Shown here one piece after another: positions 12,498 to 36,121 of a stretch of DNA of 57,808 nucleotides. The DNA comes from Comamonadaceae bacterium OH2545_COT-014. Lineage in GTDB: Bacteria > Pseudomonadota > Gammaproteobacteria > Burkholderiales > Burkholderiaceae_C. The position numbers and the translations under genes are program-made. The stretch is from assembly GCA_003859965.1 (NCBI GenBank), contig RQYR01000020.1, positions 1 through 57,808 on the forward strand, in the 5' to 3' direction. The first letter of the stretch is position 1. Each line of letters opens with the position of its first letter. The notes beneath the pieces are model-generated. The model was not told the origin of the DNA. It saw only the letters and a list, made by a program, of their open reading frames with translations, and ran no database searches.

Positions 12498-14006
12498 TCA
12501 GGCCGGCGGCCGCCGGTCCAGCTGGCGCAGCAGCGCCCACGCCATGCCGCCCAGGGCCAGCGCCCCCAGTACCAGCACAGCCCACAACAGCATCTGGCGC
12601 AGCGGAGGCGGGCCGCTGCGGGGCGGCTGCACCACCACGGCCTGCACTTGGCCCGCCGGCGGCGAGGCGGCGCTGGCCGGGGCCGCCGTTTCCTGCCCGT
12701 TGGCCAACGGGCTTTCCAGCCGGGCCAGCGGCAAGCGCTGTGCGGCGCCCGTGGCATGGTCCGGCAGCAGGCTGGACAGCGGCAGGGCCGCCGCGGGCGC
12801 CTGGGTCTGGCCGGCCGCCAGCGTGTAGGGGCCGGGGCCGCTGGCCATAAAAATCACCTGCATCGGCGTCAGCAATGCCGTCAACTGCGGCCGTTCGGCC
12901 CCACCGGGCCAGCCGGGGGCAGCGGCCTCGGCCTCAATGCGCCACTGCCGCCAGCTGGCCTGCCCCAGCTCCACCGGCGGGCTGTGGCGCACCTGGCCGC
13001 GCTCCGTCAGCGTGAAGGCCACGTGGCGCGCCAGCGGCGTCCACGGCTGGCCGCGCTGCTGGCGCGCCAGCACGCGCAGCGGCGCCAGGTGGTTGGGGCC
13101 AGGCAGGCGGATGTCGAGCGCGGCCAGCGGCGTGGCGAAAGGCAGGGTGAATTCCACCGCCTGCGGCGTTTGCCCTGCCTGCGCCGGGGCGGGGGCGGGC
13201 AGTTGCAACGGCACCGCCACGCGCGGCGCGGGCGCGGCCTCGGCCGTGGCGGCCGGTTGCAGGCGCGCGCCACGTACCGTGACCGCGCCCGCCTCGCCTT
13301 GCCCTTGCCAGGTCACGCGCAGGTAACGCCCGGCCAGCCGCGCGCCAGGCAGCGCCAGCCGCGCCGGGGCGCTGAACGCGCCGTGGCGGTACGCCGTCAC
13401 GCTGCCCAGCGGCTGCCATTGGCGCAGGTCATCGCTGGCGTGGACGTGAAAGGTGACGGGGCGACTTTCCGGCCACTCGGCCTCCAGCGTCAGCGCGGTC
13501 ACGGCGGGCTGCACGGCGCGCGCATCCAGCAGCACGCCGGGCAACGGCTGCGGCGCGCCGTCTTCCGGGGCGGGCGGCATTTGCGGCGCCTGCTGCACCT
13601 GCAATTGCACGGCGCGGCCCGGCGCTGGCTCCACGCGCAATGACAAGGGCGCACGCGCCGCCGCGTCCGCGCCATCCATGCCGTCGTGCCACGGCAGGGC
13701 CGCCAGCGTGATGGGGGGCGGCGCGGTTGCCGCAGCAGCGTGGCTGGCCGCGCGCGCCAGCGCCATTGGCACCGGCTGGCCCGCGGCGTTGAAGATGCGC
13801 AGGTCATGCCCGTCAGCGCTTTGCAGCCGGGTCAGCACGGCGGCGGGCAGCGGCAGGCGCAGCAAGCTGGCGTCCGCCGGGGTATGCAGCGGCCAGCGGT
13901 CGGCATCGCCTGCCGCGGGCGGGGCGGCCGCCGCGGGCGTGATCAGCGGCAGCCCCAGGGCCAGTGCGGCAGCCACGGCCTGAAGGCGCTTGAGGGTGAG
14001 GTTCAT
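12498..14006 (-). CDS. DUF3999 domain membrane-anchored periplasmic protein
   Basis: A 502-residue exported protein from ATG at 14006, which overlaps the stop of the DUF2339 gene by 4 bp. A signal peptide (RLQAVAAALALGLPLITPAAAA) leads into a beta-rich periplasmic region with repeated carbohydrate-binding-like strands (RYLRVTWQGQGE, RQWRIEAEA). A C-terminal transmembrane helix (MLLWAVLVLGALALGGMAWA) ends in a short basic tail. DUF3999 proteins are regularly encoded directly after DUF2339 proteins, so the two probably act together in the cell envelope. No enzymatic motif is visible. The frame continues upstream of 14006, but that is antisense to nothing known and lies inside the preceding gene. 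Confidence 0.85.
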   Translation of the reverse strand: MNLTLKRLQAVAAALALGLPLITPAAAAPPAAGDADRWPLHTPADASLLRLPLPAAVLTRLQSADGHDLRIFNAAGQPVPMALARAASHAAAATAPPPITLAALPWHDGMDGADAAARAPLSLRVEPAPGRAVQLQVQQAPQMPPAPEDGAPQPLPGVLLDARAVQPAVTALTLEAEWPESRPVTFHVHASDDLRQWQPLGSVTAYRHGAFSAPARLALPGARLAGRYLRVTWQGQGEAGAVTVRGARLQPAATAEAAPAPRVAVPLQLPAPAPAQAGQTPQAVEFTLPFATPLAALDIRLPGPNHLAPLRVLARQQRGQPWTPLARHVAFTLTERGQVRHSPPVELGQASWRQWRIEAEAAAPGWPGGAERPQLTALLTPMQVIFMASGPGPYTLAAGQTQAPAAALPLSSLLPDHATGAAQRLPLARLESPLANGQETAAPASAASPPAGQVQAVVVQPPRSGPPPLRQMLLWAVLVLGALALGGMAWALLRQLDRRPPA

Positions 14007-16945
14007 GGCGTTGTCTCCCCGGTGGCGGCGCGCACGGGGGCGCCGGTTTTGGGCGGCAGCGGGGCGATGTAGCCCATCACCAGCATCAGCACGCCCACGC
14101 CAATGAAGGCCACGATGCGCTCGGCCCCGCCGCTGTTGGCCAGGTCCACCAGCACCAGCTTGGCCACCACCAACGCCAGCAGCGCGGCCCCGGCCAGCCA
14201 TGGCGGGCGCTGGGCGCGCCGGTGGGCGCCCACCATCAGCGCCAGCGCCAGCAGCGTCCACAAGATGGAGTAGCCGGTTTGCACCACGAAGCTGGCAAAC
14301 AGCGCGCGGGCCGTCCACGCCACGTCAAAGAAGTGGTGCGCCACGCGCAGCCACACGGTGCTCAGGGCCACCAGCGCCAGCAGGCCCAGGCCGGCCCAGA
14401 AGGCGGGCCGCGTCAGCGCGGCGCTGCCCGCCGGCGGATGGGCGGCGGCCAGCACGGCGCGCCGCCACAGCAGCACGCTGCCCAGCGCCAGCGCCACGGC
14501 CAGATCGGTCGGGTTGAGCAGGGGCACATAAGGCAGCGGCGCGCTGTGGCCGGGCGAGGTCCACGCCAGCGCCAGGGCGCCGGCCAGCACCAGCACGGCC
14601 AGCGGCAGCGCCGCCGTCCACAGGTAGCCCAGCGCGTGCGGGCGCAGCGGCCAGCCGGCCGTGGCGCGCGTGGCATGCACGCCGGCCCGCGCGGCCAGGC
14701 CGGCCCAGCGCGTGATGGCGGCCAGCACGGCGGTGGCGGCCACCAGCCCGATCACGCTGGCCCAGGCGGTGTGCCAGAGCTGGGCGCGGTCCACCAGCGC
14801 CCACAGGGCGTCACCCAGCAGCAGCATGAGCAGCCAGGCCGTGCCGGGGTGCTGGGCCGCCAGCCAGCGGCGCACGGCCAGGGGCCAGCCAGCGGCCAGC
14901 GGGCCGTTTTCGTTGCGGTGCAGGTACAGGCCATGCAGCGCCAGCGCCAGCGGCCAGGCCAGCGGGCCCAGGCCGTCCAGCACCCAGACGCCGTGATCCC
15001 ACTGGTGCAGCAGGGTGAGCAGCATCAGCGGCAGCGCCGCCATGCTGGGCCAGGCGGCCACCGGCCAGCGCGCGCGCCGGGCCAGCCAGAGCGCGGCCCC
15101 GGCCGACAGCAGCAGCGCCAGCATGGTCAGCAGGCTGGCCGTGGCGGGCGCCCACACGGGCCGGGCCAGCTCTCCGGCCACCTGCGCGGGCAGGCGGCGC
15201 TGCATTTCCAGCGCCCAGGCGACGCACCACGCGGCAAAGCCGTAGAGAAACAGCGGTGCGGCCAGCTGGCGTTCCAGCTCCGCCCATCGCTGCGCCCAGT
15301 GCGAACCGCTGTGCGCCAGCGGCTGCCGCGCCCACCAGGCGCAGGCCAGCGCGGCCAGCGCCAGCAGCAACGCGCCCAGGAAGCCGGGGTGCGCCAGCGG
15401 CCAGTGGCTCAGGGGCGGCAGGTTCAGGCTGTCCAGCCAGGCCAGCAGCGCCACGCCTTGCAGGGCCAGGCCAAAGGCGCGCGGCATCCAGCGCGCCTGC
15501 CGCGCGCCCACCCAGAAGGCAGCCGCGCCCTCCAGCGCCCAGACGGCGCTGGTCCAGCGCGCATCCAGCGCCAGCGGCACGGCCAGCGTGGCAAAGCCCA
15601 CGCCCAGCGCCAAAAAGCTCTCCACCAGCAGGCGCCAGCGGCCCAGGGCATGGTCATCCGCGCGGGAACGACGCGCCAACGCGGCGGCCAGCAGCAAATA
15701 GGCCGCGCCAAAGCCCAGCGCCGAAAACGCCGCGCCGTGGGCAAACGGCTGCACCAGCCCGGCCTGCAGGCCAAAGCCCGCCAGCGGGGTGCCAAACACC
15801 AGCGTGGCATCCACCGCATTGCCGCGCGCCGTGGGCGAACGGCGGGCATAAAGCACGGCCGCTGCCACATAAATGGCCACAAAGCCCAGCAAAAAAGCCT
15901 GCGCCGTGGCGTAGTGCGCCGGCTCATAACGCAGCACGCCCCACAGCGTGGCCACGCCAAAGGTGGCCACGAAGCCCAGCAGGTTCAGCGCCCGCCAGGC
16001 GCGCTGGCTGGCAATGAACACAATGCCCAGGTTCAGCAGCATGTAATAGCTGAACAGGGCCACATGGCTGCCCCCGCCGCTGGACAGCAGCAGCGGCACG
16101 GCAAAGCCCCCGGCAAAGGCCAGCAGCGCCAGCGCCCGGGCGTTTTGCAGCAGCGCCAGCGCGCAGCCGCCCGCGCACACGGCCACCATCAGCACAAAAG
16201 CGGCCAGTGGCGGCACCAGCGCATAAAAACGGAACGCGCCAAACACGGTGAGATACAGCACCGCCACGCCCGCGCCCTGCAGCGACAGGCCAAAACCCGG
16301 CCGCGCCAGCCGCTGGCGAAAGCCCACCGCCAGCAGCGCCAGACCGGCCGCGCCAATGGCGCTCAGGCGCAGCTCCACCGGCAGCAGGCCGGCCTGCGCC
16401 GCGTAGCGCGCCAGAAACGACAGGCCCACGAACAAAATCACCAGCCCCACGCGCACGATGGTGTTACCGCCCAGCAGCCATGCGCGGGCGGCGACCAGGC
16501 CTTCTTGCACCATCCCGCCAGCCGGTGCGGGCGCGGGAGCTGGCGACGAAGGTGCTTGCCCGTCGAAGAACGAATCCTCGAACCCCGCCGCTTGCCGGCC
16601 CGGCATGGCGTCGTCGGCAGGGGTCTGCACCGCCGCAGCCACCGCCGGGGCAGGCAGGGGCGCGGGGGCGGTATCGCGCCAGGCGGGCGCCGCGTCTGCA
16701 TCTGGGCCCCGGTCTGGCGCGGCCGGGGCAACCGCAGGCTCCGCGGCCACCGGTCTGGCGCGCCGCCTGGGCCGTGGCGCGTCCTCACGGGCCGCGGCGG
16801 CCAGCTCCGCGCGAATCAGCTTGCGCAGCGTGCGCGCCAGCGTCAGCCCCATGCCAGCGCCCAGCATGGCGCCCAGGATCAGGCCCAACGTGCCTTCCAG
16901 AAACGCCCCTAGCAGCATGCCCCACACCAATCCCCAAATCACCAT
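14003..16945 (-). CDS. DUF2339 polytopic membrane protein
   Basis: A very large (980-residue) inner-membrane protein with more than twenty hydrophobic helices. It starts MVIWGLVWGMLLGAFLEGTL, a glycine-rich helix pair resembling glycine-zipper domains, followed by a proline/alanine-rich cytoplasmic linker (residues ~60-150), then the DUF2339 domain starting near AWLLGGNTIVRVGLVILFVG. This GGN-x-I-V/L-R-x-G segment is typical of the family. Gene order with DUF3999 is conserved among proteobacteria. The activity is unknown; no catalytic motif is evident. Confidence 0.9.
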   Translation of the reverse strand: MVIWGLVWGMLLGAFLEGTLGLILGAMLGAGMGLTLARTLRKLIRAELAAAAREDAPRPRRRARPVAAEPAVAPAAPDRGPDADAAPAWRDTAPAPLPAPAVAAAVQTPADDAMPGRQAAGFEDSFFDGQAPSSPAPAPAPAGGMVQEGLVAARAWLLGGNTIVRVGLVILFVGLSFLARYAAQAGLLPVELRLSAIGAAGLALLAVGFRQRLARPGFGLSLQGAGVAVLYLTVFGAFRFYALVPPLAAFVLMVAVCAGGCALALLQNARALALLAFAGGFAVPLLLSSGGGSHVALFSYYMLLNLGIVFIASQRAWRALNLLGFVATFGVATLWGVLRYEPAHYATAQAFLLGFVAIYVAAAVLYARRSPTARGNAVDATLVFGTPLAGFGLQAGLVQPFAHGAAFSALGFGAAYLLLAAALARRSRADDHALGRWRLLVESFLALGVGFATLAVPLALDARWTSAVWALEGAAAFWVGARQARWMPRAFGLALQGVALLAWLDSLNLPPLSHWPLAHPGFLGALLLALAALACAWWARQPLAHSGSHWAQRWAELERQLAAPLFLYGFAAWCVAWALEMQRRLPAQVAGELARPVWAPATASLLTMLALLLSAGAALWLARRARWPVAAWPSMAALPLMLLTLLHQWDHGVWVLDGLGPLAWPLALALHGLYLHRNENGPLAAGWPLAVRRWLAAQHPGTAWLLMLLLGDALWALVDRAQLWHTAWASVIGLVAATAVLAAITRWAGLAARAGVHATRATAGWPLRPHALGYLWTAALPLAVLVLAGALALAWTSPGHSAPLPYVPLLNPTDLAVALALGSVLLWRRAVLAAAHPPAGSAALTRPAFWAGLGLLALVALSTVWLRVAHHFFDVAWTARALFASFVVQTGYSILWTLLALALMVGAHRRAQRPPWLAGAALLALVVAKLVLVDLANSGGAERIVAFIGVGVLMLVMGYIAPLPPKTGAPVRAATGETTP

Positions 16946-17145: not shown

Positions 17146-18708
17146 ATGCCGCCCGCCATGCCGCCTGCCTCACCGCCCTCACCGCCGCCGTCCCGCCTGC
17201 CGCTGGAAGCGGGCGGCATCCTGGCGCTGGCGGCGCGCTCCATGTTCGACCTGTTCGGCAGCGCCAGCCAGGGCATGCTGCTGGTAGACCGCGACGCGCG
17301 CGTGGTGTGGATCAACGAGCAGTACCGGCGCTTTCTGCCCGCGCTGGGCTTTGCGCGCGAGGAGGACTTCGTGGGCCACCCGGTGGCCGGCGTGGTGCAC
17401 AACACGCTGATGCACCAGGTGCTGGCCAGCGGCCAGCCCATCTTGCTGGACTTGCTGACCAACCGCGCGGGCACTTTCGTCGTCAGCCGCATTCCGCTGC
17501 GCGACGAGGCGGGCGCGGTGATTGGCGCGCTGGGCATCGTGCTGTTCGACCAGCCGGCGGCCAATTTGCAGCCGCTGATCGCCAAGTTCGCCCGCCTGCA
17601 AGACGAGCTGGACGCCGCGCGGCGCGAGCTGGCGCGCCAGCGCAGCCGGCCCAGCGCGCCCGGCCAGCGCCAGGCGCGGCACAGCTTTGCCAGCTTCATT
17701 GGCAGCAGCAGCGCGGCGGTGGCCGTCAAGCGCCAGGCGCGGCGCGCGGCGCAGTCGGCCAGCCCGGTGCTGCTGCTGGGCGAAACCGGCACCGGCAAGG
17801 AGCTGCTGGCGCACGCCATCCACGCCGCATCGGCCCGCGCGGACGGGCCGCTGGTGAGCGTGAACATCGCCGCCGTGCCCGACACGCTGCTGGAGGCCGA
17901 GTTCTTTGGCGTGGCCCCCGGCGCCTACACCGGCGCGGGCAGCAAGGGCCGCACCGGCAAGTTCAAGCTGGCCGATGGCGGCACGCTGTTTCTGGACGAG
18001 ATTGGCGACATGCCGCCCGGCCTGCAGGCCAAGCTGCTGCGTGCGCTGCAGGAGGGCGAGATCGAGCCGCTGGGCAGCAACCAGATTCAGCCCTTCGACG
18101 CCCGCATCATCGCCGCCACCAGCCGCGACCTGCCCGCGCTGGTGCGCGCCGGGCGCTTCCGCGAAGACCTGTACTACCGCCTGAACGTGCTGCCCATTCA
18201 CGTGCCGCCGCTGCGCGCGCGCCGCGCCGACGTGCCCGCGCTGGTGGAGGCCCTGGGCGACGACATGGCCCAGCGCGGCACGCCCGCCCCCGAGCTGACG
18301 CCCGCCGCACTGGCGCTGCTGGCCGCGCAGCACTGGCGCGGCAACATCCGCGAGCTGCGCAACGTGCTGGAACAGGCCGCGCTGGCCAGCGACGGCGGCC
18401 TGCTGGACGCGCCGCAACTGGCCCTTGTTTTGCGCCAGTCGGGCCTGCACGAGCTGGCCCCCGCCGCCCCGCTGCCGCCCGCCGGGGACACCCCGGACGC
18501 CGCCCCGCCCGGTGCCGCGCCACCCGATGCCACCCACGCCCTGCTGCGCCCGCTGGCCGAGCAGGTGGCCGAACTGGAGCAGCGCGCCATTGCCGCCGCC
18601 CTGGCCGCCAGCGGCGGCAACAAGCTGGCTGCCGCGCGCCGCCTGGGCATCTCGCGCGCCAAGCTGTACGACCGTCTGGAAAACCCTGATTCCGCGCCAG
18701 ACAAGTGA
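17146..18708 (+). CDS. Sigma-54-dependent transcriptional activator with N-terminal PAS domain
   Basis: A 520-residue enhancer-binding protein that remodels RNA polymerase-sigma54. The frame is open from 17005, but ATG 17146 (or 17158) gives a sensible N-terminus; the earlier residues are low-complexity. A PAS sensor ([20 protein letters not shown] ...) spans about 30-145 and a coiled linker about 150-175. The AAA+ domain has Walker A GETGTGKE (~212), the sigma54-contact loop GAYTGA (~259), Walker [10 protein letters not shown] (~280) and the arginine-finger region [10 protein letters not shown]. The C-terminal Fis-type helix-turn-helix [20 protein letters not shown] is intact. It directly precedes an operon with a sigma-54 promoter at 18846, its likely target. 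PAS-EBPs of this shape include regulators of 3-hydroxybutyrate and short-acid use; the ligand here is unknown. Confidence 0.92.
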
Positions 18709-18711
18709 CTG

Positions 18712-18740
18712 AAAACCAGACAGTTCACCTGTCTGGTTTT
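18712..18740. promoter_or_regulatory. Perfect 12-bp inverted repeat after the activator gene (terminator or enhancer site)
   Basis: AAAACCAGACAG and CTGTCTGGTTTT flank a 5-nt loop, 3 bp past the activator's stop codon. The A/T flanks allow a rho-independent terminator in either direction. The centre is also ~117 bp upstream of the -24 element of the operon promoter, the usual distance for an activator's upstream site; CCAGACA is repeated just before it at 18698-18704. Both roles are possible. Confidence 0.7.
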
Positions 18741-18800
18741 AAGACACCTGCCGCCATTCCCAAGGCTCGTCCATGCCAGACCCGGCACGGCGCATGTCCC

Positions 18801-18829
18801 CGCAACGCCTTGCCCGCCAAGGCGTTGCG
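18801..18829. promoter_or_regulatory. Second perfect 12-bp inverted repeat upstream of the sigma-54 promoter
   Basis: CGCAACGCCTTG and CAAGGCGTTGCG flank a 5-nt loop and are not followed by a T-run. The centre lies about 33 bp upstream of the -24 GG. It is unlikely to be a terminator; an operator or activator site is more plausible, but nothing shows what binds it. Confidence 0.6.
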
Positions 18830-18845
18830 CCCGCCCCTCCCAGCG

Positions 18846-18862
18846 TTGGCACGGCTTGTGCA
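18846..18862 (+). promoter_or_regulatory. Sigma-54 (-24/-12) promoter of the ABC importer operon
   Basis: TTGGCACGGCTTGTGCA matches the sigma-54 consensus YTGGCACG-N4-TTGCW with a single mismatch, and the invariant GG (18848-18849) and GC (18860-18861) are exactly 10 bp apart. Transcription would begin near 18873, about 40 nt before the ATG at 18912. The neighbouring activator with an intact GAYTGA loop is the obvious regulator. Confidence 0.85.
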
Positions 18863-18911
18863 TCTGCTTGTGCATTTCCCGGCACGCCCAACACACACTA
18901 GGAGACACCGC

Positions 18912-20099
18912 ATGCAACGCCGCACCCTCGTTCACCTGAGCGCCCTGGCCGCGCTCGCCACCCTGGCCGCCCCGGCGCTGGCCGCGGGCGAAATCAAGAT
19001 CGCCCACGTCTACAGCAAGACCGGCCCGCTGGAAGCCTATGGCAAGCAAACGCACACCGGCCTGCTGATGGGCCTGCGCCACGCCACCGGCGGCACGATG
19101 GAAGTGGCGGGCAAGAAGCTGGTGGTGATCGAAAAAGACGACCAGGGCAAGCCCGACCTGGGCAAGAGCCAGCTCGCCACCGCCTACGCCGACGACAAGG
19201 CCGACCTGGCCGTCGGCCCCACCTCCAGCGGCGTGGCCCTGGCCATGCTGCCCGTGGCCGAGGAATACAAGAAGGTGCTGCTGGTCGAGCCCGCCGTGGC
19301 CGACAGCATCACCGGCGACAAGTGGAACAAGTACATCTTCCGCACCGGCCGCAACTCCAGCCAGGATGCCATCAGCAACGCCGTGGCGCTGGACAAGCCC
19401 GGCACCGCCATCGCCACGTTGGCGCAGGACTACGCCTTTGGCCGCGACGGCGTGAAGGCTTTCAAGGGCGCGCTCAAGAACGCCAAGCTGGTGCACGAGG
19501 AATACCTGCCCACCAACACCACCGACTTCACCGCCGGCGCGCAGCGCCTGATCGACAAGCTCAAGGGCGAGCCGGGGCGCAAGATCATCTTCGTCATCTG
19601 GGCCGGCGCGGGCAACCCGTTCAAGATCGCCGACCTGGACCTGAAGCGCCACGGCATCGAGATCGCCAGCGGCGGCAACATCCTGCCCGCCATGGCCGCC
19701 TACAAGAACCTGCCGGGCATGGAAGGCGCCACCTACTACTACCACGGCATCCCCAAGAACCCGCTGAACGACGCGCTGGTGGCCGAGCACCAGAAGCAGT
19801 TCAACGCCCCGCCCGACTTCTTCACCGCCGGGGGCTTTTCAGCCGCCATGGCCATCGTCACTGCGCTGAAAAACACGGGCGGCGACACCGGCGCCAACAA
19901 GCTGATCAAGACCATGGAAGGCATGCGCTTTGACACGCCCAAGGGTAAGATGACCTTCCGCAAGGAAGACCACCAGGCCATGCAAAGCATGTACCACTTC
20001 AAGATCAAGGTGGACCCGGCCCTGGCCTGGGGCGTGCCCGAGCTGGTGCGCGAGATCAAACCTGAGGAGATGAACGTGCCCGTGCGCAACGGGCGCTGA
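18912..20099 (+). CDS. LIV-type ABC transporter periplasmic substrate-binding protein
   Basis: A 395-residue periplasmic binding protein of the type I (LivJ/Peripla_BP_6) fold. ATG 18912 has an AGGAG box seven bases upstream and begins a signal peptide ([20 protein letters not shown], cleaved after ALA). The mature start [20 protein letters not shown] is typical; [18 protein letters not shown] and [19 protein letters not shown] are ligand-domain segments. It is the first gene after the sigma-54 promoter. The ligand is unknown; in this subfamily it is often an acid or aromatic compound rather than a branched-chain amino acid. Confidence 0.92.
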
Positions 20100-20166
20100 C
20101 ACAGCCGCCCCCCCGCGACCATCCGCCCAGCCTGCTCCGCAGCTCAGGGATCCAAGCGCGTCCGCC

Positions 20167-21645
20167 ATGCCTGCCAGAAAACCTCCCGGGCGACACGCCA
20201 GCGCCACCACGTTCGGGTGGCCCGCTTGGCTGCTGACCATCGCCTGCATGACCGTTTCGGCCGCCACGCACGCGGCCCAGCCACTGCCGTCTCTGCGGAT
20301 CGACCCCGCGCAGACCAGTGTCTCCGGCGTGTCTTCTGGCGGCTACATGGCCGTGCAACTGCATGTGGCTTACTCGGCCACATTCAAGAAAGGGGCAGGG
20401 GTCATCGCGGCGGGGCCATTTCACTGTGCGCAAGGCGCCGTGGCGCACGCCCTGGGGCGCTGCATGACGAATCCGTCAGCCATTCCGGTGGCGCAGCTCG
20501 TCCGCGCCACCCGCGACTGGTCAGCCAGCGGCCATCTGGATGCCACGGCCCACCTGGCCAGCAGCCGGGTTTACCTGTTTTCGGGCGCGCAAGACAGCGT
20601 GGTCAAGCCTGGCGTCGTGCAAGCCCTGCGGGACTACTACCTGCACTTCGTGCCGCCCGCTCAGCTCACCTATGTGAACACCGTGGCCGCCGAACACGCC
20701 ATGGTGACCGACGACCACGGCGCGGCCTGCGCCACCAAGGCCGATCCCTACATCAACGATTGCGATTACGACCTGGCTGGCGCCATCCTCCAGCACCTCT
20801 ACGGCCCGCTGGCGCCACGCAATGAAGGCGCGCCCGCCGGCCAGCTGACCGAGTTTGACCAGACCGGCTTCACCACCGGCCATGCCATGGGCCGAAGCGG
20901 CTGGATTTACGTGCCCGCCCTCTGCGCCAGCGGCCAGCAGCCCTGCCGCCTGCACGTGGCGTTGCATGGCTGCCGGCAGAACACCGCCGCCGTGGGCGCG
21001 CAGTACGCGCGGCACGCGGGTTACAACCGCTGGGCGGACAGCAACCGCCTCGTCGTGCTCTACCCGCAAACAGGCGACACCGCCCCCAACGGCTGCTGGG
21101 ACTGGTGGGGCTATGGCAGCGCCGATTACGCCCGCCAGTCGGCCCCGCAAATGCAGGCCATCAAGGCCATGGTGGACCAGTTGACCAGCGGCACGCCTGC
21201 AGGCGCGCTGCCTGCCCCCACCAGCGTGGCCGCGTCCGCCACCCACCAGGGCATGACCTTGGACTGGCCCGCCGTGGCGGGCGCGCTCGGCTACCACGTC
21301 TACCGCAACGGCGCCCGGGCCACGGCCCAGCCCATCACCGCAACACGCTTCACCGACCGCGCGCTCAATCCCGGCACCCCGTATCGCTGGCGCGTCAAAA
21401 CCGTGGACGCCGCCGGACACGAGAGCGGCTTTTCTCCGGCCGCCACCGCCAGCACCACGGGCTTTGCCCCGCGCTGCCACGTGGCCAACAACGTCAGCCA
21501 CGTTCTCATGGGACGCGCCTACGCGCTGTTCGGATACACCTTCGCCCGGGGCTCGAACGAAGCCCTGGGGCTTTGGAACGTGCTTACCTCCACCACCCTG
21601 CGGCAAACCGGGCCGGGCCATTACCGCATGGGCACCTGCTACTGA
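20167..21645 (+). CDS. Secreted poly(3-hydroxyalkanoate) depolymerase-like esterase (type 2 catalytic domain) with fibronectin type III domain
   Basis: A 492-residue exported serine hydrolase. A signal peptide (~residues 18-37, ending THAAQP) precedes the catalytic domain. The lipase box GVSSG lies at 54-58 near the N-terminus, as in type 2 extracellular short-chain PHA depolymerases; the later HVALHGCRQN segment resembles the oxyanion region, and NGCWDWWGYGSADYARQSAP is typical. A fibronectin III module (PAPTSVAASATHQGMTLDWP ... YRWRVKTVDAAGHESGFS) links to a C-terminal module of about 50 residues (CHVANNVSHVLMGRAYALFG) that may bind polymer. The gene is embedded in the ABC operon: 67 bp after the binding-protein gene and only 3 bp before the first ATPase gene. 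Catalysis on polyester is inferred from family. Confidence 0.85.
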   Translation: MPARKPPGRHASATTFGWPAWLLTIACMTVSAATHAAQPLPSLRIDPAQTSVSGVSSGGYMAVQLHVAYSATFKKGAGVIAAGPFHCAQGAVAHALGRCMTNPSAIPVAQLVRATRDWSASGHLDATAHLASSRVYLFSGAQDSVVKPGVVQALRDYYLHFVPPAQLTYVNTVAAEHAMVTDDHGAACATKADPYINDCDYDLAGAILQHLYGPLAPRNEGAPAGQLTEFDQTGFTTGHAMGRSGWIYVPALCASGQQPCRLHVALHGCRQNTAAVGAQYARHAGYNRWADSNRLVVLYPQTGDTAPNGCWDWWGYGSADYARQSAPQMQAIKAMVDQLTSGTPAGALPAPTSVAASATHQGMTLDWPAVAGALGYHVYRNGARATAQPITATRFTDRALNPGTPYRWRVKTVDAAGHESGFSPAATASTTGFAPRCHVANNVSHVLMGRAYALFGYTFARGSNEALGLWNVLTSTTLRQTGPGHYRMGTCY

Positions 21646-21648
21646 CCG

Positions 21649-22416
21649 ATGAACGGCCTCTCCACCGAAAACCTCACCATCCGCTTTGGCGGCCACGTGG
21701 CCGTGAACGCGGTCACCTGCCAGTTCGCGCCGGGCACGCTGACGGCCATCGTCGGCCCCAACGGCGCGGGCAAGACGACGTACTTCAACCTCATCTCCGG
21801 CCAGCTCAAGGCCACGGCGGGGCGGGTGCGGCTGGGCGGGCGCGATCTGTCGGACCTGCCGCCTTCGGCGCGCACGCGCGCCGGGCTGGGGCGGGCCTTT
21901 CAGCTCACCAACCTGTTTCCCAACCTGTCGGTTCTGGAAAACGTGCGCCTGGCGGTGCAGGCCACGCGCCACGCGGGCCTGAGCCTGCTGAGCATCTGGA
22001 GCGACCACCGCGCGCTGACGCGGCGCGCGCACGAGATTCTGGAGGCCGTGGCCCTGGCCGAGCGCCAGCACATGCCGGTGGCCAGCCTGCCGCACGGCGA
22101 CCAGCGCAAGCTGGAGGTGGCGCTGCTGATGGCGCTGGACCCGCAGGTCTACATGTTCGACGAACCCACGGCCGGCATGAGCCATGACGAGGCGCCCGTG
22201 ATCCTGAACCTGATCCGCGCCCTGAAGCAAGACAAAAGCAAGACCATCCTGCTGGTGGAGCACAAGATGGACGTGGTGCGCGAGCTGGCCGACCGCATCA
22301 TCGTGCTGACCAACGGCACCCTGGTGGCCGATGGCGAGCCGGCCGAGGTGATTGCCTCGCCCGTGGTGCAACAGGCCTACCTGGGCGTGGCGCCGGGACA
22401 GGAGACAGCGGCATGA
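21649..22416 (+). CDS. LIV-type ABC transporter ATP-binding protein (LivG-like)
   Basis: A 255-residue ATPase with Walker A GPNGAGKT, Q-loop region GLGRAFQLTNLFPNLSVLEN, Walker B VYMFDEPTAG and H-loop LLVEHKMD. The signature segment is LPHGDQRKLE instead of the classical LSGGQ; this H-G-D/E-Q form is normal for LivG-type proteins. The start is 3 bp after the depolymerase stop, and the stop overlaps the next gene by 4 bp, so it is translationally coupled. Confidence 0.93.
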   Translation: MNGLSTENLTIRFGGHVAVNAVTCQFAPGTLTAIVGPNGAGKTTYFNLISGQLKATAGRVRLGGRDLSDLPPSARTRAGLGRAFQLTNLFPNLSVLENVRLAVQATRHAGLSLLSIWSDHRALTRRAHEILEAVALAERQHMPVASLPHGDQRKLEVALLMALDPQVYMFDEPTAGMSHDEAPVILNLIRALKQDKSKTILLVEHKMDVVRELADRIIVLTNGTLVADGEPAEVIASPVVQQAYLGVAPGQETAA

Positions 22417-23168
22417 ACCGTGACATGAATGGCGGCATGAACCATGACGACGCCCTGCTGCGGCTTGAAGGCGTGCACACGCACATTGGCGCGTACCACA
22501 TCCTGCACGGGGTCGATCTGCACGTGCCGCGCGGGCAGCTGACCATGCTGCTGGGCCGCAACGGCGCGGGCAAGACGACCACGCTGCGCACCATCATGGG
22601 CCTGTGGCGCGCCAGCGCGGGGCGCATCACCTTCCAGGGGCAAGACATCACCGCCTGGCCCACGCCGCGCATCGCGCAGCAGGGCGTGGCCTACGTGCCA
22701 GAGAACATGGGCATCTTCGCCGACCTGACGGTGAAGGAAAACATGCTGCTGGCCGCGCGCGGCGCGCAACGCGCCACGCAGCTGGATGCGGCGCGGCTGC
22801 AATGGATCTTCTCGCTCTTTCCCGCCGTGGAAAAGTTCTGGAACTGGCCGGCGGGCAAGCTCAGCGGCGGGCAAAAGCAGATGCTGGCCGTCAGCCGCGC
22901 CATTGCCGAGCCGCGCGAGCTGCTCATCATCGACGAACCCAGCAAGGGCCTGGCGCCCGCCATCATCAACAACATGATCGACGCATTTCAAAAGCTCAAG
23001 GAAAGCGGCGTGACGATTCTGCTGGTGGAGCAGAACATCAACTTCGCCAAGCGCCTGGGCGACCAGGTGGCCGTGATGGACGATGGCCGCGTGGTGCACG
23101 CCGGCCCCATGCAGGCGCTGGCGCAGGACGAGGCATTGCAGCAATCGCTGCTGGGGCTGTCGCTATGA
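22413..23168 (+). CDS. LIV-type ABC transporter ATP-binding protein (LivF-like)
   Basis: A 251-residue partner ATPase with Walker A GRNGAGKT, YVPENMGIFADLTVKENM, signature LSGGQKQML, Walker B LLIIDEPSKGLAP and H-loop LLVEQNIN, all typical LivF features. It overlaps the genes on each side by 4 bp (ATGA). A second methionine 10 codons in (MNHDDALL) is an alternative start. Confidence 0.93.
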   Translation: MNRDMNGGMNHDDALLRLEGVHTHIGAYHILHGVDLHVPRGQLTMLLGRNGAGKTTTLRTIMGLWRASAGRITFQGQDITAWPTPRIAQQGVAYVPENMGIFADLTVKENMLLAARGAQRATQLDAARLQWIFSLFPAVEKFWNWPAGKLSGGQKQMLAVSRAIAEPRELLIIDEPSKGLAPAIINNMIDAFQKLKESGVTILLVEQNINFAKRLGDQVAVMDDGRVVHAGPMQALAQDEALQQSLLGLSL

Positions 23169-24172
23169 GCGCCGCCAACAACCACTCGCTGAACGCCACC
23201 CGGCTGGACTGGAAGCCGCTGGCGCTGGTGCCGCTGACGGCGCTGGCCGCGCTGCCGCTCATCGGCTCGGGCAGCACCTGGCTCACGCTCACGGTAGCGG
23301 GCCTGGCCATGGGCATGATCATCTTCATCATTGCCTCGGGGCTGACGCTCGTCTTTGGCCTGATGGACGTGCTCAACTTCGGCCATGGCGTGTTCATCGC
23401 CCTGGGCGCCTTCGTGGCCGCCAGCGTGCTGGGTCTGATGCACGACTGGACCGGCAGCGCCAGCCTGTGGCGCAACCTGCTGGCGGTGCTGCCGGCCATG
23501 CTGGTGGCCATGCTGGCGGCGGGCGCGCTGGGGCTGGCGTTCGAGCGCTTCATCGTGCGCCCGGTGTACGGCCAGCACCTCAAGCAGATCCTCATCACCA
23601 TGGGCGGCATGATCATTGGCGAGGAGCTGATCAAGGTCATCTGGGGGCCGCAGCAGATTCCGCTGCCGCTGCCCGAGGGCATGCGCGGCGCGGTGCTGCT
23701 GGGCGACGCGGCGGTGGAGAAGTACCGCCTGATCGCCGTGGCCGTGGGCGCGGCGGTGTTCGCGGCGCAGGTCTGGGTGCTCACGCGCACCAAGGTGGGC
23801 CTGCTGATCCGCGCCGGCGTGCAGGACGGCGAAATGGTCGAGGCCTTGGGCTACCGCATCCGCCGCCTGTTCGTGGGCGTGTTCGCCGCCGGCAGCGCGC
23901 TGGCCGGGCTGGGCGGGGTGATGTGGGGGCTGTACCAGCAAAGCCTGGTGCCGCAGATGGGCGCACAGGTCAACGTGCTGATCTTCATCGTCATCATCAT
24001 CGGCGGCCTGGGCAGCACGCTGGGCGCGCTGATCGGCGCGTTGCTGGTGGGGCTGATGGCCAACTACACCGGCTTTCTGGCCCCCAAGGTGGCGCTGTTT
24101 TCCAACATCGCGCTGATGGTGGCCATTTTGTTGTGGCGTCCGCAGGGCGTGTACCCGGTGGCCAACCGCTGA
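23165..24172 (+). CDS. LIV-type ABC transporter permease (LivH-like)
   Basis: A 335-residue inner-membrane permease. ATG 23165 overlaps the upstream stop (ATGA) and is preferred although the frame stays open far upstream. Eight or more hydrophobic helices are visible; GLTLVFGLMDVLNFGHGVFI is the LivH hallmark, and IIIGGLGSTLGALIGALLVG is the EAA-type coupling loop. It pairs with the LivM-like gene 99 bp downstream. Confidence 0.92.
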   Translation: MSAANNHSLNATRLDWKPLALVPLTALAALPLIGSGSTWLTLTVAGLAMGMIIFIIASGLTLVFGLMDVLNFGHGVFIALGAFVAASVLGLMHDWTGSASLWRNLLAVLPAMLVAMLAAGALGLAFERFIVRPVYGQHLKQILITMGGMIIGEELIKVIWGPQQIPLPLPEGMRGAVLLGDAAVEKYRLIAVAVGAAVFAAQVWVLTRTKVGLLIRAGVQDGEMVEALGYRIRRLFVGVFAAGSALAGLGGVMWGLYQQSLVPQMGAQVNVLIFIVIIIGGLGSTLGALIGALLVGLMANYTGFLAPKVALFSNIALMVAILLWRPQGVYPVANR

Positions 24173-24185
24173 AAGGACGCCTGGC

Positions 24186-24278
24186 ATGAAAATCATCCAG
24201 TTCATGATGGCCCGGGCATGCGCCTTCTGCCCCCGGATCGCCTTTTCACCCAGCCCATTGGGAGGTGCGTCATGCTGA
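24186..24278 (+). CDS. Possible 30-residue leader ORF before the LivM-like gene
   Basis: MKIIQFMMARACAFCPRIAF and ten further residues are read from ATG 24186, which has an AAGGA box eight bases upstream. The stop codon (24276-24278) falls just past the LivM ATG (24272), so ribosomes ending here would reach the LivM start. It may serve translational coupling across the only sizeable gap among the transport genes. No homology is recognised; it may be fortuitous. Confidence 0.3.
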   Translation: MKIIQFMMARACAFCPRIAFSPSPLGGASC

Positions 24279-25360
24279 GCCGCCTGCTCTCGCACGACTG
24301 GCCGCGCTCGCGCGTGCTCGCCGTCATTCTGGCGGCCATCTTCATTGGCCTGGCCTTTGCGCCTTTTTTGTTTCCCGGTGTCAAGGCGCTGAACGTGGCG
24401 GCCAAGATCCTGATCTTTGTCGTGCTGGTGGCCGCGTTCGATCTGCTGCTGGGCTACACCGGCATCGTCAGCTTTGCGCACACCATGTTCTTTGGCATAG
24501 GCGCTTACGGCGTGGCCATTGCGTCCAGCCGCCTGGGCGCCGGCTGGGGCGCGCTGGGCCTGGGCGTGGCGGCGGCGCTGGCGGTGTCCTTGTTGCTGTC
24601 GGTGCTGATCGGGCTGTTTTCGCTGCGCGTGCGGGCCATCTTCTTTGCCATGATCACGCTGGCCGTGGCGGCGGCGTTCCAGACGCTGGCCTCGCAACTG
24701 TCGGCGCTGACCGGCGGCGAGGACGGCCTGACCTTCCGCCTGCCCGAGTGGCTGTCGCCCAGCTTCGAGCCGTTCGAGCGCGAATTCCTCGGCGTGCTGA
24801 TCGACGGGCGCATCCTCAGCTACTACCTGCTGTTCGTCTGCGCCACGCTGCTGGTGCTGGCGCTGCTGCGCATCGTCAACTCGCCCTTTGGCCGCGTGCT
24901 GCAAGCCATCCGCGAAAACGAGTTCCGCGCCGAGGCCATTGGCTACCGCGTGGTGGTCTACCGCACGCTGGCCAGCGTGCTGTCGGCCCTGTTCGCCTGC
25001 CTGGCTGGCTGCATGCTGGCCATCTGGCTGCGCTACAACGGGCCGGACACCTCGCTGAGCTTCGAGATCATGATGGACGTGCTGCTCATCGTCGTCATCG
25101 GCGGCATGGGCACGATGTACGGCGCCGTCATCGGCTCGGTGCTGTTCGTGGTGGCGCAAAGCTACCTGCAAGACCTGCTGCGCCTGGGCCACGAGGCCAC
25201 GGCCGCCTGGCCGCTGCTGCCCGCGCTGCTCTCGCCCGACCGCTGGCTGCTGTGGCTGGGCCTGCTGTTCGTGCTCTCCGTCTATTACTTTCCCACCGGC
25301 GTGGTGGGCCGCCTGCGCGCCAGCGCCGCGCGGCGCCACCCCGCCCAGCCCGCACGCTGA
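24272..25360 (+). CDS. LIV-type ABC transporter permease (LivM-like)
   Basis: A 362-residue permease. ATG 24272 is chosen over 24218 because GGGAGGTG sits five bases before it and the first helix then starts properly (SRVLAVILAAIFIGLAFAPF). GYTGIVSFAHTMFFGIGAYG and SLRVRAIFFAMITLAVAAAF are LivM signatures; VVIGGMGTMYGAVIGSVLFV is the coupling loop. The C-terminus extends into a basic tail after YYFPTGVVGRLR. Confidence 0.92.
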   Translation: MLSRLLSHDWPRSRVLAVILAAIFIGLAFAPFLFPGVKALNVAAKILIFVVLVAAFDLLLGYTGIVSFAHTMFFGIGAYGVAIASSRLGAGWGALGLGVAAALAVSLLLSVLIGLFSLRVRAIFFAMITLAVAAAFQTLASQLSALTGGEDGLTFRLPEWLSPSFEPFEREFLGVLIDGRILSYYLLFVCATLLVLALLRIVNSPFGRVLQAIRENEFRAEAIGYRVVVYRTLASVLSALFACLAGCMLAIWLRYNGPDTSLSFEIMMDVLLIVVIGGMGTMYGAVIGSVLFVVAQSYLQDLLRLGHEATAAWPLLPALLSPDRWLLWLGLLFVLSVYYFPTGVVGRLRASAARRHPAQPAR

Positions 25361-25384
25361 GGCTTTTCACGAAAGCGCGCCGCC

Positions 25385-26317
25385 ATGAACCCACTGCCCA
25401 CTCCCACCTCGCTCTACCTGCACTGCGCCGGCCACGAAATCCACGTGACCGACTGGGCGCCCGCCCCCGGCGCCACGCCGCGCGGCCACGTCGTGGCCTG
25501 GCACGGCCTGGCCCGCACCGGGCGCGACATGGACCCGCTGGCCGCCCACCTGGCCGCGCGCGGCTGGCGCGTGGTCTGCCCCGACACCATTGGCCGCGGC
25601 CTCTCGCAATGGGCCGCCCGCCCGCAAGAAGCCTATTGCCTGGCCTTTTACGCGCGGCTGGCGCGCGAGCTGCTGGCGCAGCTGGACATCACGCGCTGCC
25701 ACTGGGTGGGCACCTCCATGGGCGGCGCCATCGGCACCGTGGCCGCCGCCGGGCAGGTGGAGCCGGCGCTGCGCGAGGCCATCGCCAGCCTGGTGCTCAA
25801 CGACAACGCGCCCGAGCTGGCCGCCCCGGCGCTGGAGCGCATCAAGGCCTACGCGGGCCAGCCGCCGGCCTTTGCCACCGTGACCGAGCTGGAAGCCTTC
25901 TTCCGCCAAGCCTACGCACCCTACGGCTACCTGCCCGACGCGCAATGGCGCCAGCTCACCGAAACCTCTACGCGCCGCCTGCCCGACGGCCGCGTCACCC
26001 CGCACTACGACCCGGCCATCATCGGCCAGTTCATCCACCACCCGCAGGACTACCTGATCTGGCCGCACTACGACGCGCTGCGCATCCCCGTGCTGCTGCT
26101 GCGCGGCGAAAGCAGCGACCTGGTGCTGCCCGAGGTGGTGGCGCGCATGCGCACGCGCGGCCCCGGCGCGGCCGGCCTGCTGCAAGTGGAGGAAGTGCCC
26201 GGCTGCGGGCACGCCCCGGCGCTGAACGTGCCCACGCAGCTGGACCGCGTGACCGCCTTTCTGGAGCAAGCCGCCGGGCTGCCCCCGCCATCTGCCGCCT
26301 GCCCCTCCGCAGCCTGA
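25385..26317 (+). CDS. Cytoplasmic alpha/beta hydrolase, last gene of the ABC operon
   Basis: A 310-residue hydrolase with no signal peptide. The nucleophile elbow is GTSMGG (Ser111), the oxyanion motif is WHGLART near residue 40, and the late histidine is in GCGHAPALN; VLLLRGESSDLV carries the usual acid region. It follows the LivM-like gene by 24 bp and so is very likely co-transcribed. Together with the secreted depolymerase and importer it suggests that an ester or oligomer is cleaved after uptake; the substrate is inferred only from context. Confidence 0.88.
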   Translation: MNPLPTPTSLYLHCAGHEIHVTDWAPAPGATPRGHVVAWHGLARTGRDMDPLAAHLAARGWRVVCPDTIGRGLSQWAARPQEAYCLAFYARLARELLAQLDITRCHWVGTSMGGAIGTVAAAGQVEPALREAIASLVLNDNAPELAAPALERIKAYAGQPPAFATVTELEAFFRQAYAPYGYLPDAQWRQLTETSTRRLPDGRVTPHYDPAIIGQFIHHPQDYLIWPHYDALRIPVLLLRGESSDLVLPEVVARMRTRGPGAAGLLQVEEVPGCGHAPALNVPTQLDRVTAFLEQAAGLPPPSAACPSAA

Positions 26318-34266: not shown

Positions 34267-34575
34267 ATCCCCTTCCGGGAAAGCCGCCAGGATGGCCTTG
34301 AAGCCATCGGCGGCTTTTTTTTCGTCCTCGCGCTCGGACGATTCGAGGTCTTCAACCAGCGCCTTCATGAACGCGCGTGCGGGCTCTTCGCCCAGGATCG
34401 CGCGCAGCTTTCCGCGCACGCGCCAGTTAGCAGGCCGCTTGCCTTGTTTCATTTGAATGAGTGTTGGGCCTGTCGTGCCTATTGTTCGCGCCAGCTTGTT
34501 TAGCCCTCCGCACATTTCAGATGCGTTGTCAATTAGTTGACTGATTTGGTCAAGTGATTGCATTTTGCTATTCAT
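34234..34575 (-). CDS. Small phage repressor-like DNA-binding protein
   Basis: A 113-residue protein with a helix-turn-helix around residues 24-55 (GLNKLARTIGTTGPTLIQMK, then QGKRPANWRVRGKLRAIL), as in the Cro/CI-like regulators of filamentous phages. A charged C-terminal helix follows. The last ten codons (WRKRRDSNPR) are read from the complement of the tRNA-Ser T-arm and acceptor stem. A second start at 34563 (MQSLDQ) is possible; neither has a clear ribosome site. Paired TTGCAA repeats lie just upstream and probably form its operator. Confidence 0.75.
   Translation of the reverse strand: MNSKMQSLDQISQLIDNASEMCGGLNKLARTIGTTGPTLIQMKQGKRPANWRVRGKLRAILGEEPARAFMKALVEDLESSEREDEKKAADGFKAILAAFPEGDWRKRRDSNPR
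34280..34322 (+). terminator. Rho-independent terminator of tRNA-Ser inside the antisense repressor gene
   Basis: AAAGCCGCC (34280-34288) pairs with GGCGGCTTT (34309-34317); an inner GATGGC/GCCATC helix and a 6-nt loop complete the stem, and eight T follow. It starts 14 nt after the tRNA CCA. The same bases encode residues of the repressor on the minus strand. Confidence 0.85.
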
Positions 34576-34590
34576 TGAGATAGGCTACGA

Positions 34591-34620
34591 TTGCAATTTG
34601 CAATTAGTTGCAAGTTGCAT
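34591..34620. promoter_or_regulatory. Operator-like TTGCAA repeats between repressor and Rep genes
   Basis: TTGCAA occurs at 34591, 34598 and 34608, and TTGCAT at 34615. They form two 13-bp units (TTGCAATTTGCAA and TTGCAAGTTGCAT) 17 bp apart, 16 bp upstream of the repressor ATG. The layout fits binding by a dimeric phage repressor to its own promoter. Confidence 0.6.
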
Positions 34621-34951
34621 TTATCTTACCGGAGCCTGCATGCCCCCCTCAATTACGCCCGCCCCCTGTCCAAATCCCAGTGATCCGGCTGCCGTCGTCA
34701 TGCAGGCTCCGGCAGCCACCCGCAGCGGGGCGGGCACCCATTCTTGGCAACACATCCACACGGCAGCCCGTCGTGAATTGCTGACACGCGGCTTTTGGCT
34801 GAGCCGCCAGTTTGACTTTTTTGGCTACGGCCCATCGTTGCGCCAAGACGCCGCCCCTGCTGGGAGCGCTTGCGCGCACGGCGGGGGCGGCGTCCAAGCG
34901 CTCCCCGATGGTAATCACGGGAATCACGGGGAATCACGGGGAGAACCTCAA
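34621..34951. other. Phage intergenic region with candidate replication origin
   Basis: The Rep frame is open here but the translation is low-complexity, so I treat it as non-coding. It holds a perfect 14-bp inverted repeat (CCGGAGCCTGCATG at 34629-34642, its complement at 34699-34712) and three direct AATCACGGG repeats at 34913-34940 just before Rep. Such structures suit a rolling-circle origin and Rep binding; this is inferred. Confidence 0.45.
34913..34940 (+). repeat. Three direct AATCACGGG repeats upstream of rep
   Basis: Copies start at 34913, 34922 and 34932, so the spacing is 9 and 10 bp. They end 11 bp before the Rep ATG and overlap its GGGGAGA ribosome site. They may be Rep-binding iterons. 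Confidence 0.6.
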
Positions 34952-36121
34952 ATGACCCGTCCAACCCTTTCAGCCCTCGTCCTTGACGGCCAAAAAATCA
35001 AGCTGCGCCTCATGGCCGAAAGAAGCCAAGGCCAAAGCGTCTGTCACGTCGACTGGCTCCGGTTCACCACCAACCTGAGAGACGCCCCCCTTGATCTGGA
35101 CATCCTCTTTCCGCATGCGGCGGATGGCAACTACTGGGACATCAAACGCCATCAAGTCGCTCAGCACCTGCAAAAGCTGGAAGCCCAGCAATTCCAGCCC
35201 GCCGCACAAGCCTACAGCTTGGCAACCCGCATCGCGGAACAACTCGGCGAAGGCTTCGACGTTGACCCCGAAGTCAAGAAAGGCCACGACTTCTACGCCA
35301 AACGCTGGGTCATCACCCTGAACGGCAAAGAAGTGGGCTGGGTCGGCTTCGGAGCCAGCAGCGACAGCCCGAAGCAGAAAAAGCAAGCCGGGACGATCCA
35401 TGCCAACCTGTACGGCACTGCCTGCACCTTCGCCCGTCCAGGCTGGCGCACGTCCATCAGCCACCTCATCCGCGAAGTTCAGGCCACTATCACCCGTATT
35501 GACATCGCACTTGACTTCTTCGATGGCCGCCAAGGCGGCATTGACGCCATCAAGAGCGACTACATGGCCGGACTTTGCGACGTGGGCGGCAAGCGCCCCA
35601 AATGCAGCATGAACGGCGACTGGTGCAACGGCGCGGAACGCTCCTTCTACATCGGCAGCAAGGAAGCGGGCAAGCAAACCAACGTCTACGAAAAAGGCCA
35701 TCAGCTCTTTGGCCGTGACAGCGGCAGCAACTGGCTGCGCTTCGAACTGCGCTACGGCAACAAGCTGCGCGAAATCCCGGCCGATGCCCTCGAAGACCCG
35801 GACGCCTACTTTGCCGGTGCCAGCCAATGGCACGCCAGCGTACTGAGCGAGCAAAAGGCCCTGCAAGCAGTCAAGCCCATCCCCTGCGAAACCGAGCTTG
35901 CCCTGCAAAACGTCGAAGCCGAAGTCCGCCGAAAGGTCAACTGGTTTGAGCGAGTAGCTGGGGCCACCTTCAGCGTCAGCGCCTTGCCGGGTGATGTCCT
36001 TGCCCTGTTCTTGATGGCTGGGGGCGGCGTCGCGATCAACCTTTGGTTCGCGGCTATTTCGTTCAGGCTGGCCTATTGGTCTTTGACCAGGGTCACGCGA
36101 ATTGTGGGGGTGCAGTCGTGA
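34952..36121 (+). CDS. Inovirus replication initiation protein with a fused membrane-protein tail
   Basis: A 389-residue protein. ATG 34952 has GGAGA eight bases upstream and starts MTRPTLSALVLDGQKIKL. Segments CHVDWLRFTTNL, TITRIDIALDFFDG, and FYIGSKEAGKQTNVYEKGHQ followed by WLRFELRYGNK are those of the Rep_trans/RstA family, which nicks phage DNA to start rolling-circle replication. From about residue 350 the sequence changes character: DVLALFLMAGGGVAINLWFA and the following ISFRLAYWSLTRVTRIVG are hydrophobic and resemble the C-terminus of the small DUF2523 (pVI-like) protein that normally sits directly upstream of zot. The stop overlaps the zot start (GTGA). This suggests a deletion that removed the coat genes. 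The RstA core appears intact. Confidence 0.85.
   Translation: MTRPTLSALVLDGQKIKLRLMAERSQGQSVCHVDWLRFTTNLRDAPLDLDILFPHAADGNYWDIKRHQVAQHLQKLEAQQFQPAAQAYSLATRIAEQLGEGFDVDPEVKKGHDFYAKRWVITLNGKEVGWVGFGASSDSPKQKKQAGTIHANLYGTACTFARPGWRTSISHLIREVQATITRIDIALDFFDGRQGGIDAIKSDYMAGLCDVGGKRPKCSMNGDWCNGAERSFYIGSKEAGKQTNVYEKGHQLFGRDSGSNWLRFELRYGNKLREIPADALEDPDAYFAGASQWHASVLSEQKALQAVKPIPCETELALQNVEAEVRRKVNWFERVAGATFSVSALPGDVLALFLMAGGGVAINLWFAAISFRLAYWSLTRVTRIVGVQS

Follow-up and report, generated by a model that had tools for sequence, protein, structure and literature searches.

Can one operon couple a secreted polyester depolymerase to an ABC importer that takes up what the enzyme releases? The question is raised by a gene cluster on contig RQYR01000020.1 of Comamonadaceae bacterium OH2545_COT-014 (assembly GCA_003859965.1), of which we analysed the whole stretch of 57,808 nucleotides (hereafter the window). 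We conclude that the cluster is probably a sigma-54-controlled locus for scavenging extracellular polyhydroxybutyrate (PHB) and that it most likely imports 3-hydroxybutyrate (3HB) or short oligomers made outside the cell. It comprises the following features:

17146..18708, + strand: ACT, a PAS-AAA+-Fis enhancer-binding protein (Pfam PAS_4, Sigma54_activat with 218.6 bits, AAA_lid_14 and HTH_8)
18712..18740: perfect inverted repeat AAAACCAGACAG-5-CTGTCTGGTTTT, likely the activator site (upstream activating sequence, UAS)
18846..18862, + strand: sigma-54 promoter TTGGCACGGCTTGTGCA, a match to the strict pattern
18912..20099, + strand: SBP, a periplasmic substrate-binding protein of the LIV/HAAT class (Peripla_BP_6, 181.1 bits; signal peptide by eye)
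20167..21645, + strand: DEP, a type 2 short-chain-length polyhydroxyalkanoate (PHA) depolymerase (NF050059)
21649..22416, + strand: NBD1, a LivG-type ATPase (ABC_tran, BCA_ABC_TP_C; UrtD/LivG-like, below cut-offs)
22413..23168, + strand: NBD2, a LivF-type ATPase (ABC_tran; UrtE/LivF-like, below cut-offs)
23165..24172, + strand: TM1, a LivH-type permease (BPD_transp_2, 116.5 bits)
24218..25360, + strand: TM2, a LivM-type permease (BPD_transp_2, 123.4 bits)
25385..26317, + strand: HYD, an alpha/beta hydrolase (Abhydrolase_1)

This confirms the gene order on one strand, with its sigma-54 promoter, given in a preliminary description of the same DNA. The 4-bp overlaps described there are present at NBD1/NBD2 and NBD2/TM1; the other spacings, put at 3-99 bp, differ slightly from those that we measured after SBP, which run from 3 to 67 bp (SBP-DEP 67, DEP-NBD1 3, TM1-TM2 45 and TM2-HYD 24), and ACT is separated from SBP by 200 bp. 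The genes from SBP to HYD would be co-transcribed. By Pfam, the gene set of a LIV/HAAT ABC importer is complete in a single cluster, with SBP, two BPD_transp_2 permeases and two ATPases. For SBP, ATG 18912 is the more likely start, with AGGAGA immediately 5', and the start of ACT is uncertain (17146 or 17005).

DEP reached 393.8 bits against NF050059 (cut-off 280), which identifies the catalytic domain of type 2 short-chain-length PHA depolymerases, and its closest solved relatives were the PHB depolymerase entries 2d80 (E 6.6e-65) and 2d81. An N-terminal lipase box, GVSSG, lies at position 54, and the Ser-Asp-His triad (S56, D143, H177) was invariant across 11 aligned sequences. By eye the N-terminus is signal-peptide-like, and the protein also has an fn3-like stretch (21.6 bits, under the Pfam cut-off of 25) and a C-terminal domain. 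DEP was the sole type 2 match in the window's genome, where no type 1 depolymerase match reached E 1e-40. From these sequence features, DEP most likely acts on PHB outside the cell. A different polyester, or import of a hydroxy acid other than 3HB (3-hydroxyvalerate, cutin-like esters), could be argued from the window's DEP, which sits on a long branch and shares no more than 58% identity with the other DEPs of our tree, but the score far above the NF050059 cut-off, the conserved triad and a partner enzyme family in relatives that is the 3HB-oligomer hydrolase make this improbable.

To what extent the importer goes together with PHB enzymes was assessed in 150 genomes of the window's family (family survey) and in 300 genomes of its order (order survey). 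SBP orthologues were found in 85 of the 150 family genomes, type 2 depolymerases in 35, 3HB-oligomer hydrolases in 42 and type 1 depolymerases in 70. Type 2 depolymerases of the SBP-bearing family genomes lay at most 15 kb from SBP in 22 of 25 places, 3HB-oligomer hydrolases in 25 of 34, and type 1 depolymerases in 0 of 64. When counted anywhere in the genome, and with p values uncorrected for kinship, the frequencies in the 85 SBP-bearing genomes and the 65 others were 32 and 10 for the 3HB-oligomer hydrolase (p 0.003), 25 and 10 for the type 2 depolymerase (p 0.052), 46 and 24 for type 1 (p 0.047), and 58 and 27 for either depolymerase type (p 0.0015). Beyond the window's family, the order survey yielded DEP of type 2 in 35 of 300 genomes, SBP in 24 and both in 8; the two genes were adjacent in five of these eight, two of which belong to another family.

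We then compared operons, combining 80 loci fetched from the window's family with 80 named loci (Acidovorax, Variovorax, Curvibacter, Comamonas, Hydrogenophaga, Roseateles, Ideonella, Cupriavidus and others) into a set of 151 that differ in their SBP DNA, of which 138 are complete. The order ACT-SBP-[DEP]-NBD1-NBD2-TM1-TM2-[x]-HYD recurred in the first 80 loci. DEP was present in 41 of the 138 complete relatives, in all 41 between SBP and NBD1 and nowhere else in those loci, and two loci of another family (L235, L236) have it in the same slot, as SBP-DEP-NBD1-NBD2-TM1-TM2. A 3HB-oligomer hydrolase (PF10605, unrelated to DEP) lies downstream of TM2 in 43 of the 138, which supports the PHB theme that had been proposed for the operon. 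Ten proteins scanned from operon gaps of relatives comprised three members of this hydrolase family (L035, L048, L098), a further binding protein (L032), a carboxylesterase (L085), a chemoreceptor (L039), another alpha/beta hydrolase (L049) and three without a match, two of them antisense to the operon. A carboxylesterase-family gene replaces the 3HB-oligomer hydrolase between TM2 and HYD in L085 and L151.

The 3HB-oligomer hydrolase had no match in the window's genome, and the type 2 depolymerase none in two genomes of the same genus (G015, G146), the second of which has the 3HB-oligomer hydrolase. A simple lipobox pattern was found in 33 of 44 operon 3HB-oligomer hydrolases of relatives, which suggests, at the sequence level, that these forms act on the envelope; the monomer could then be a main import substrate in those relatives.

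On a tree of the transporter (139 rows), a minimum of 23 state changes is needed for DEP and of 19 for the 3HB-oligomer hydrolase, and because of these many changes we regard the two as exchangeable modules. In a quick tree of DEP (59 rows, 45 from operons and 14 from outside, with long branches including the window's), 8 changes of place were needed against 12.8 in shuffles, and outside copies were nested among operon copies. Distances of DEP and transporter correlate (Mantel r 0.48, p 0.0005, n=41); together with the shared slot in relatives and in a second family, this speaks against DEP being a strain-specific insertion, one of the outcomes against which the preliminary description had set its proposal. 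It had also asked whether the depolymerase is fixed in the operon across relatives, and at 41 of 138, with none in the two same-genus genomes, it is not; the wording of a "dedicated" importer system is accordingly not upheld.

Several observations weigh against a locus devoted to PHB. The genome-level associations of SBP with PHB enzymes are uncorrected for kinship, and neither type 1 nor type 2 depolymerase was detected in 27 of the 85 SBP-bearing genomes. Neither DEP nor the 3HB-oligomer hydrolase is in the operon of 77 of the 138 complete relatives; the two co-occur in raw counts (p 9e-5), an association that was lost in independent tree pairs (median p 0.45 and 0.63). The operons of L235 and L236 show neither ACT nor HYD, the fold of HYD is a common one, and the more distant orthologues (L113-L127), whose genomes come from across the order, class and phylum, show neither PHB enzyme. 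Among 20 neighbouring proteins chosen from 11 of the distant loci, some were encoded by an SBD_N/NBD_C gene (L123; domains that we take to mark a family of four-carbon-acid kinases), an HpcH/HpaI aldolase gene (L118) or acyl-CoA-synthetase-type genes (L119, L122), and others by glycosidase, decarboxylase or unrelated genes.

These neighbours, the missing enzymes and the frequent state changes would all fit an importer that handles short hydroxy or keto acids in general (lactate-, 3HB- or tetronate-like) and to which PHB enzymes are optional add-ons in some species. This is a real alternative, which we consider unlikely for two reasons: both PHB enzymes, and not type 1 depolymerases, mostly sit at the SBP operon where SBP is present, and HYD, of an ester-hydrolase type, is kept in 133 of the 138 relatives. 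Given a broader ligand range, it would be largely compatible with PHB scavenging. In one locus from another family of the order (L112, 2201-6027, - strand), an AMP-binding gene of the acyl-CoA-synthetase type lies between TM2 and the 3HB-oligomer hydrolase, an arrangement suggesting that the imported acid takes a CoA route.

If the depolymerase were an unrelated neighbour of an ordinary importer for branched-chain amino acids, this would account for the ATPases and permeases scoring best with urea and LIV models. These scores are below cut-off, however, and none of the curated Liv and Urt models listed exceeded its cut-off for any of the five transporter proteins (for the ATPases, among the best 25 models). 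We aligned 15 SBPs, including the window's, with E. coli LivJ using MAFFT and inspected Ser79, Thr102, Tyr202 and Glu226, which we take to be the amino-acid contacts of LivJ. All 15 SBPs retain Ser79; Thr102 is replaced by Ala throughout, and Tyr202 by Ala, Gly, Pro or Ser. The Glu226 column holds Glu in 9 of the 15, the window's included, which at face value would fit an amino acid; placed instead, tentatively, through an alignment with 4ey3, the position falls on an invariant Gly256. On balance, the SBP residues speak against an amino-acid site, without naming a ligand. An SBP that binds only amino acids, also among the outcomes named as fatal to the initial proposal, has become less likely through the loss of Thr102 and Tyr202, with the Glu226 column ambiguous. 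With the conserved DEP slot and the second PHB enzyme in relatives added, we regard an amino acid importer as very improbable.

In 5 of the 138 complete relatives (L036, L067, L132, L133, L140) SBP is present as two tandem copies. In 15 (L032, L035, L046, L047, L070, L073, L081, L099, L102, L134, L136, L140, L148, L204, L205) a LIV-type binding protein other than SBP is encoded before HYD, after the 3HB-oligomer hydrolase or TM2; 13 of these 15 loci also have the 3HB-oligomer hydrolase. This second binding protein might broaden the range of ligands.

No signal peptide is apparent in HYD, whose Pfam matches were solely Abhydrolase_1 and Hydrolase_4. Its probable triad, S111-D245-H276, is invariant in 16 sequences, and its predicted structure (pLDDT 90.8) has an alpha/beta hydrolase fold, with 4ose, 3kxp and 3bwx as best rows. 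It had no match to PF10605, the 3HB-oligomer hydrolase family seen in relatives, and fell far short of the model for intracellular PHA depolymerases (NF050089, 27.5 bits against a cut-off of 300). HYD relatives directly follow TM2 in L121 and L123 (49%) and directly precede SBP in L241 and L242 (57-59%). At L227 (6654-9841), a 3HB-oligomer hydrolase gene is directly followed by that of a HYD relative (67%), and LIV genes were not found by tblastn in 16 kb; HYD may, going by this pair, belong to 3HB-oligomer metabolism by itself.

ACT carries a GAYTGA loop (GAFTGA-type), an AAA+ sigma-54 interaction domain and a Fis-type helix-turn-helix, as expected of an enhancer-binding protein; a -24/-12 promoter is adjacent and RpoN is encoded in the window's genome. 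The strict sigma-54 pattern matched once in the 57.8 kb, both strands considered, at 18846. For a comparison across relatives, we took 147 different regions upstream of SBP, the window's included, and as a control 730 random 450-base stretches from the same loci. The strict box was found in 65 of the 147 regions and 2 of the 730 controls, and the loose box in 114 and 43, respectively; composition shuffles gave means of 0.04 (strict) and 2.0 (loose), and the opposite strand of the upstream regions 0 and 17. The inverted repeat at 18712-18740 was absent from the preliminary description. Its core, CAGACA-N2-11-TGTCTG with at most 1 mismatch, occurred in 46 of the 147 regions against 14 of the 730 controls, the exact core CAGACA-N-TGTCTG in 13 against 1, and half sites in 77 against 33. 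The exact dyad was found once in the window's 3.1 Mb genome; because a backward control pattern likewise gave 1 match, the argument for the dyad is its position, not its rarity. Conserved box and dyad, together with RpoN, support the sigma-54 control that had been proposed. ACT is present in 117 of the 138 complete relatives. In 6 of the 151 loci (L039, L045, L053, L054, L064, L145) a chemoreceptor gene lies between activator and SBP; the single member scanned, that of L039, has an sCache_2 domain, and the receptor perhaps serves chemotaxis toward the same compound.

Taken as PHB scavenging, the locus would work as follows. In response to an inducer, presumably, the PAS activator would bind the upstream dyad and turn on the conserved -24/-12 promoter, and secreted DEP would cut PHB into 3HB and short oligomers. 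SBP would capture a product of this cleavage and the LIV-class ABC importer bring it in with ATP, after which cytoplasmic HYD would cleave imported dimers or other short esters. A 3HB dehydrogenase, encoded outside the operon in the window's genome (376.7 bits), would feed 3HB into central metabolism; a PHA synthase is also present in this genome. In relatives with an added, often lipobox-bearing 3HB-oligomer hydrolase, cleavage of oligomers may also take place at the envelope.

Elsewhere in the window, genes for a DUF3999 and a DUF2339 protein adjoin each other upstream of the operon on the opposite strand (12501-16945, - strand). At 34565-37068, a Rep_trans replication protein and a Zot-family protein, presumably an assembly protein in phages, form a filamentous-phage-like pair in a GC dip (about 0.60 versus 0.70), and the region is perhaps an integrated filamentous prophage.

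All parts of the locus come from known families. Nor is it new for such genes to be under sigma-54, since PMC11332829 predicts sigma-N sites for every phasin, depolymerase and hydrolase gene of R. eutropha except phaP3. In the open literature accessible to us, including PMC2864759, PMC2842291, PMC3430594, PMC7147478 and PMC11332829, we came across no assignment of PHB products to an ABC importer. We tentatively suggest, as a proposal still somewhat in doubt, that this polyester-utilisation locus, common across the family and found in relatives within the order, may contain the first ABC importer assigned to PHB products, probably 3HB oligomers and monomer, with slot-exchanged enzymes and its own sigma-54 activator site. 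Should this hold, a function would be found for a LIV-type SBP clade whose solved structure, 3n0x, is unassigned, and genomes could be scanned for PHB scavengers, including the importer carriers in which no depolymerase was detected (27 of 85). A sigma-54 promoter would then be at hand, as would a candidate sensor of what bioplastic breakdown releases. With the cluster shared by many relatives, uptake as a step in bioplastic breakdown is open to direct testing.

Among known systems, the nearest to SBP is 3n0x, its closest solved relative (near-full-length match, E 1e-173), which like 3nnd is titled "possible substrate binding protein of ABC transporter system"; the match is strong and the title gives no ligand or function. 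The importer shares with the LIV/HAAT systems LivJ/LivKHMGF and UrtABCDE its composition of one SBP, two permeases and two ATPases of the same families, and differs from them in falling under the cut-off of every listed Liv/Urt model, in the replaced Thr102 and Tyr202 of LivJ and in having polyester enzymes as partners. DEP has in common with the type 2 extracellular PHA depolymerases 2d80/2d81 the catalytic domain, the GVSSG lipase box and the triad, whereas its gene lies between a binding-protein gene and the genes of the ATPases that go with it. The 3HB-oligomer hydrolases (PF10605), present in this operon in relatives and without a match in the window's genome, include that of strain H16, which, according to PMC2864759, degrades products of intracellular depolymerases and of which C. 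metallidurans PhaY is termed an orthologue; in contrast, 33 of the 44 operon forms carry a lipobox. As a whole, and by analogy only, the arrangement resembles a utilisation locus with a polyester as its target and a LIV-class ABC transporter as its importer. The counterparts are the polysaccharide utilisation loci, in which a secreted depolymerase, a binding protein, an importer and an inner hydrolase stand under one regulator.

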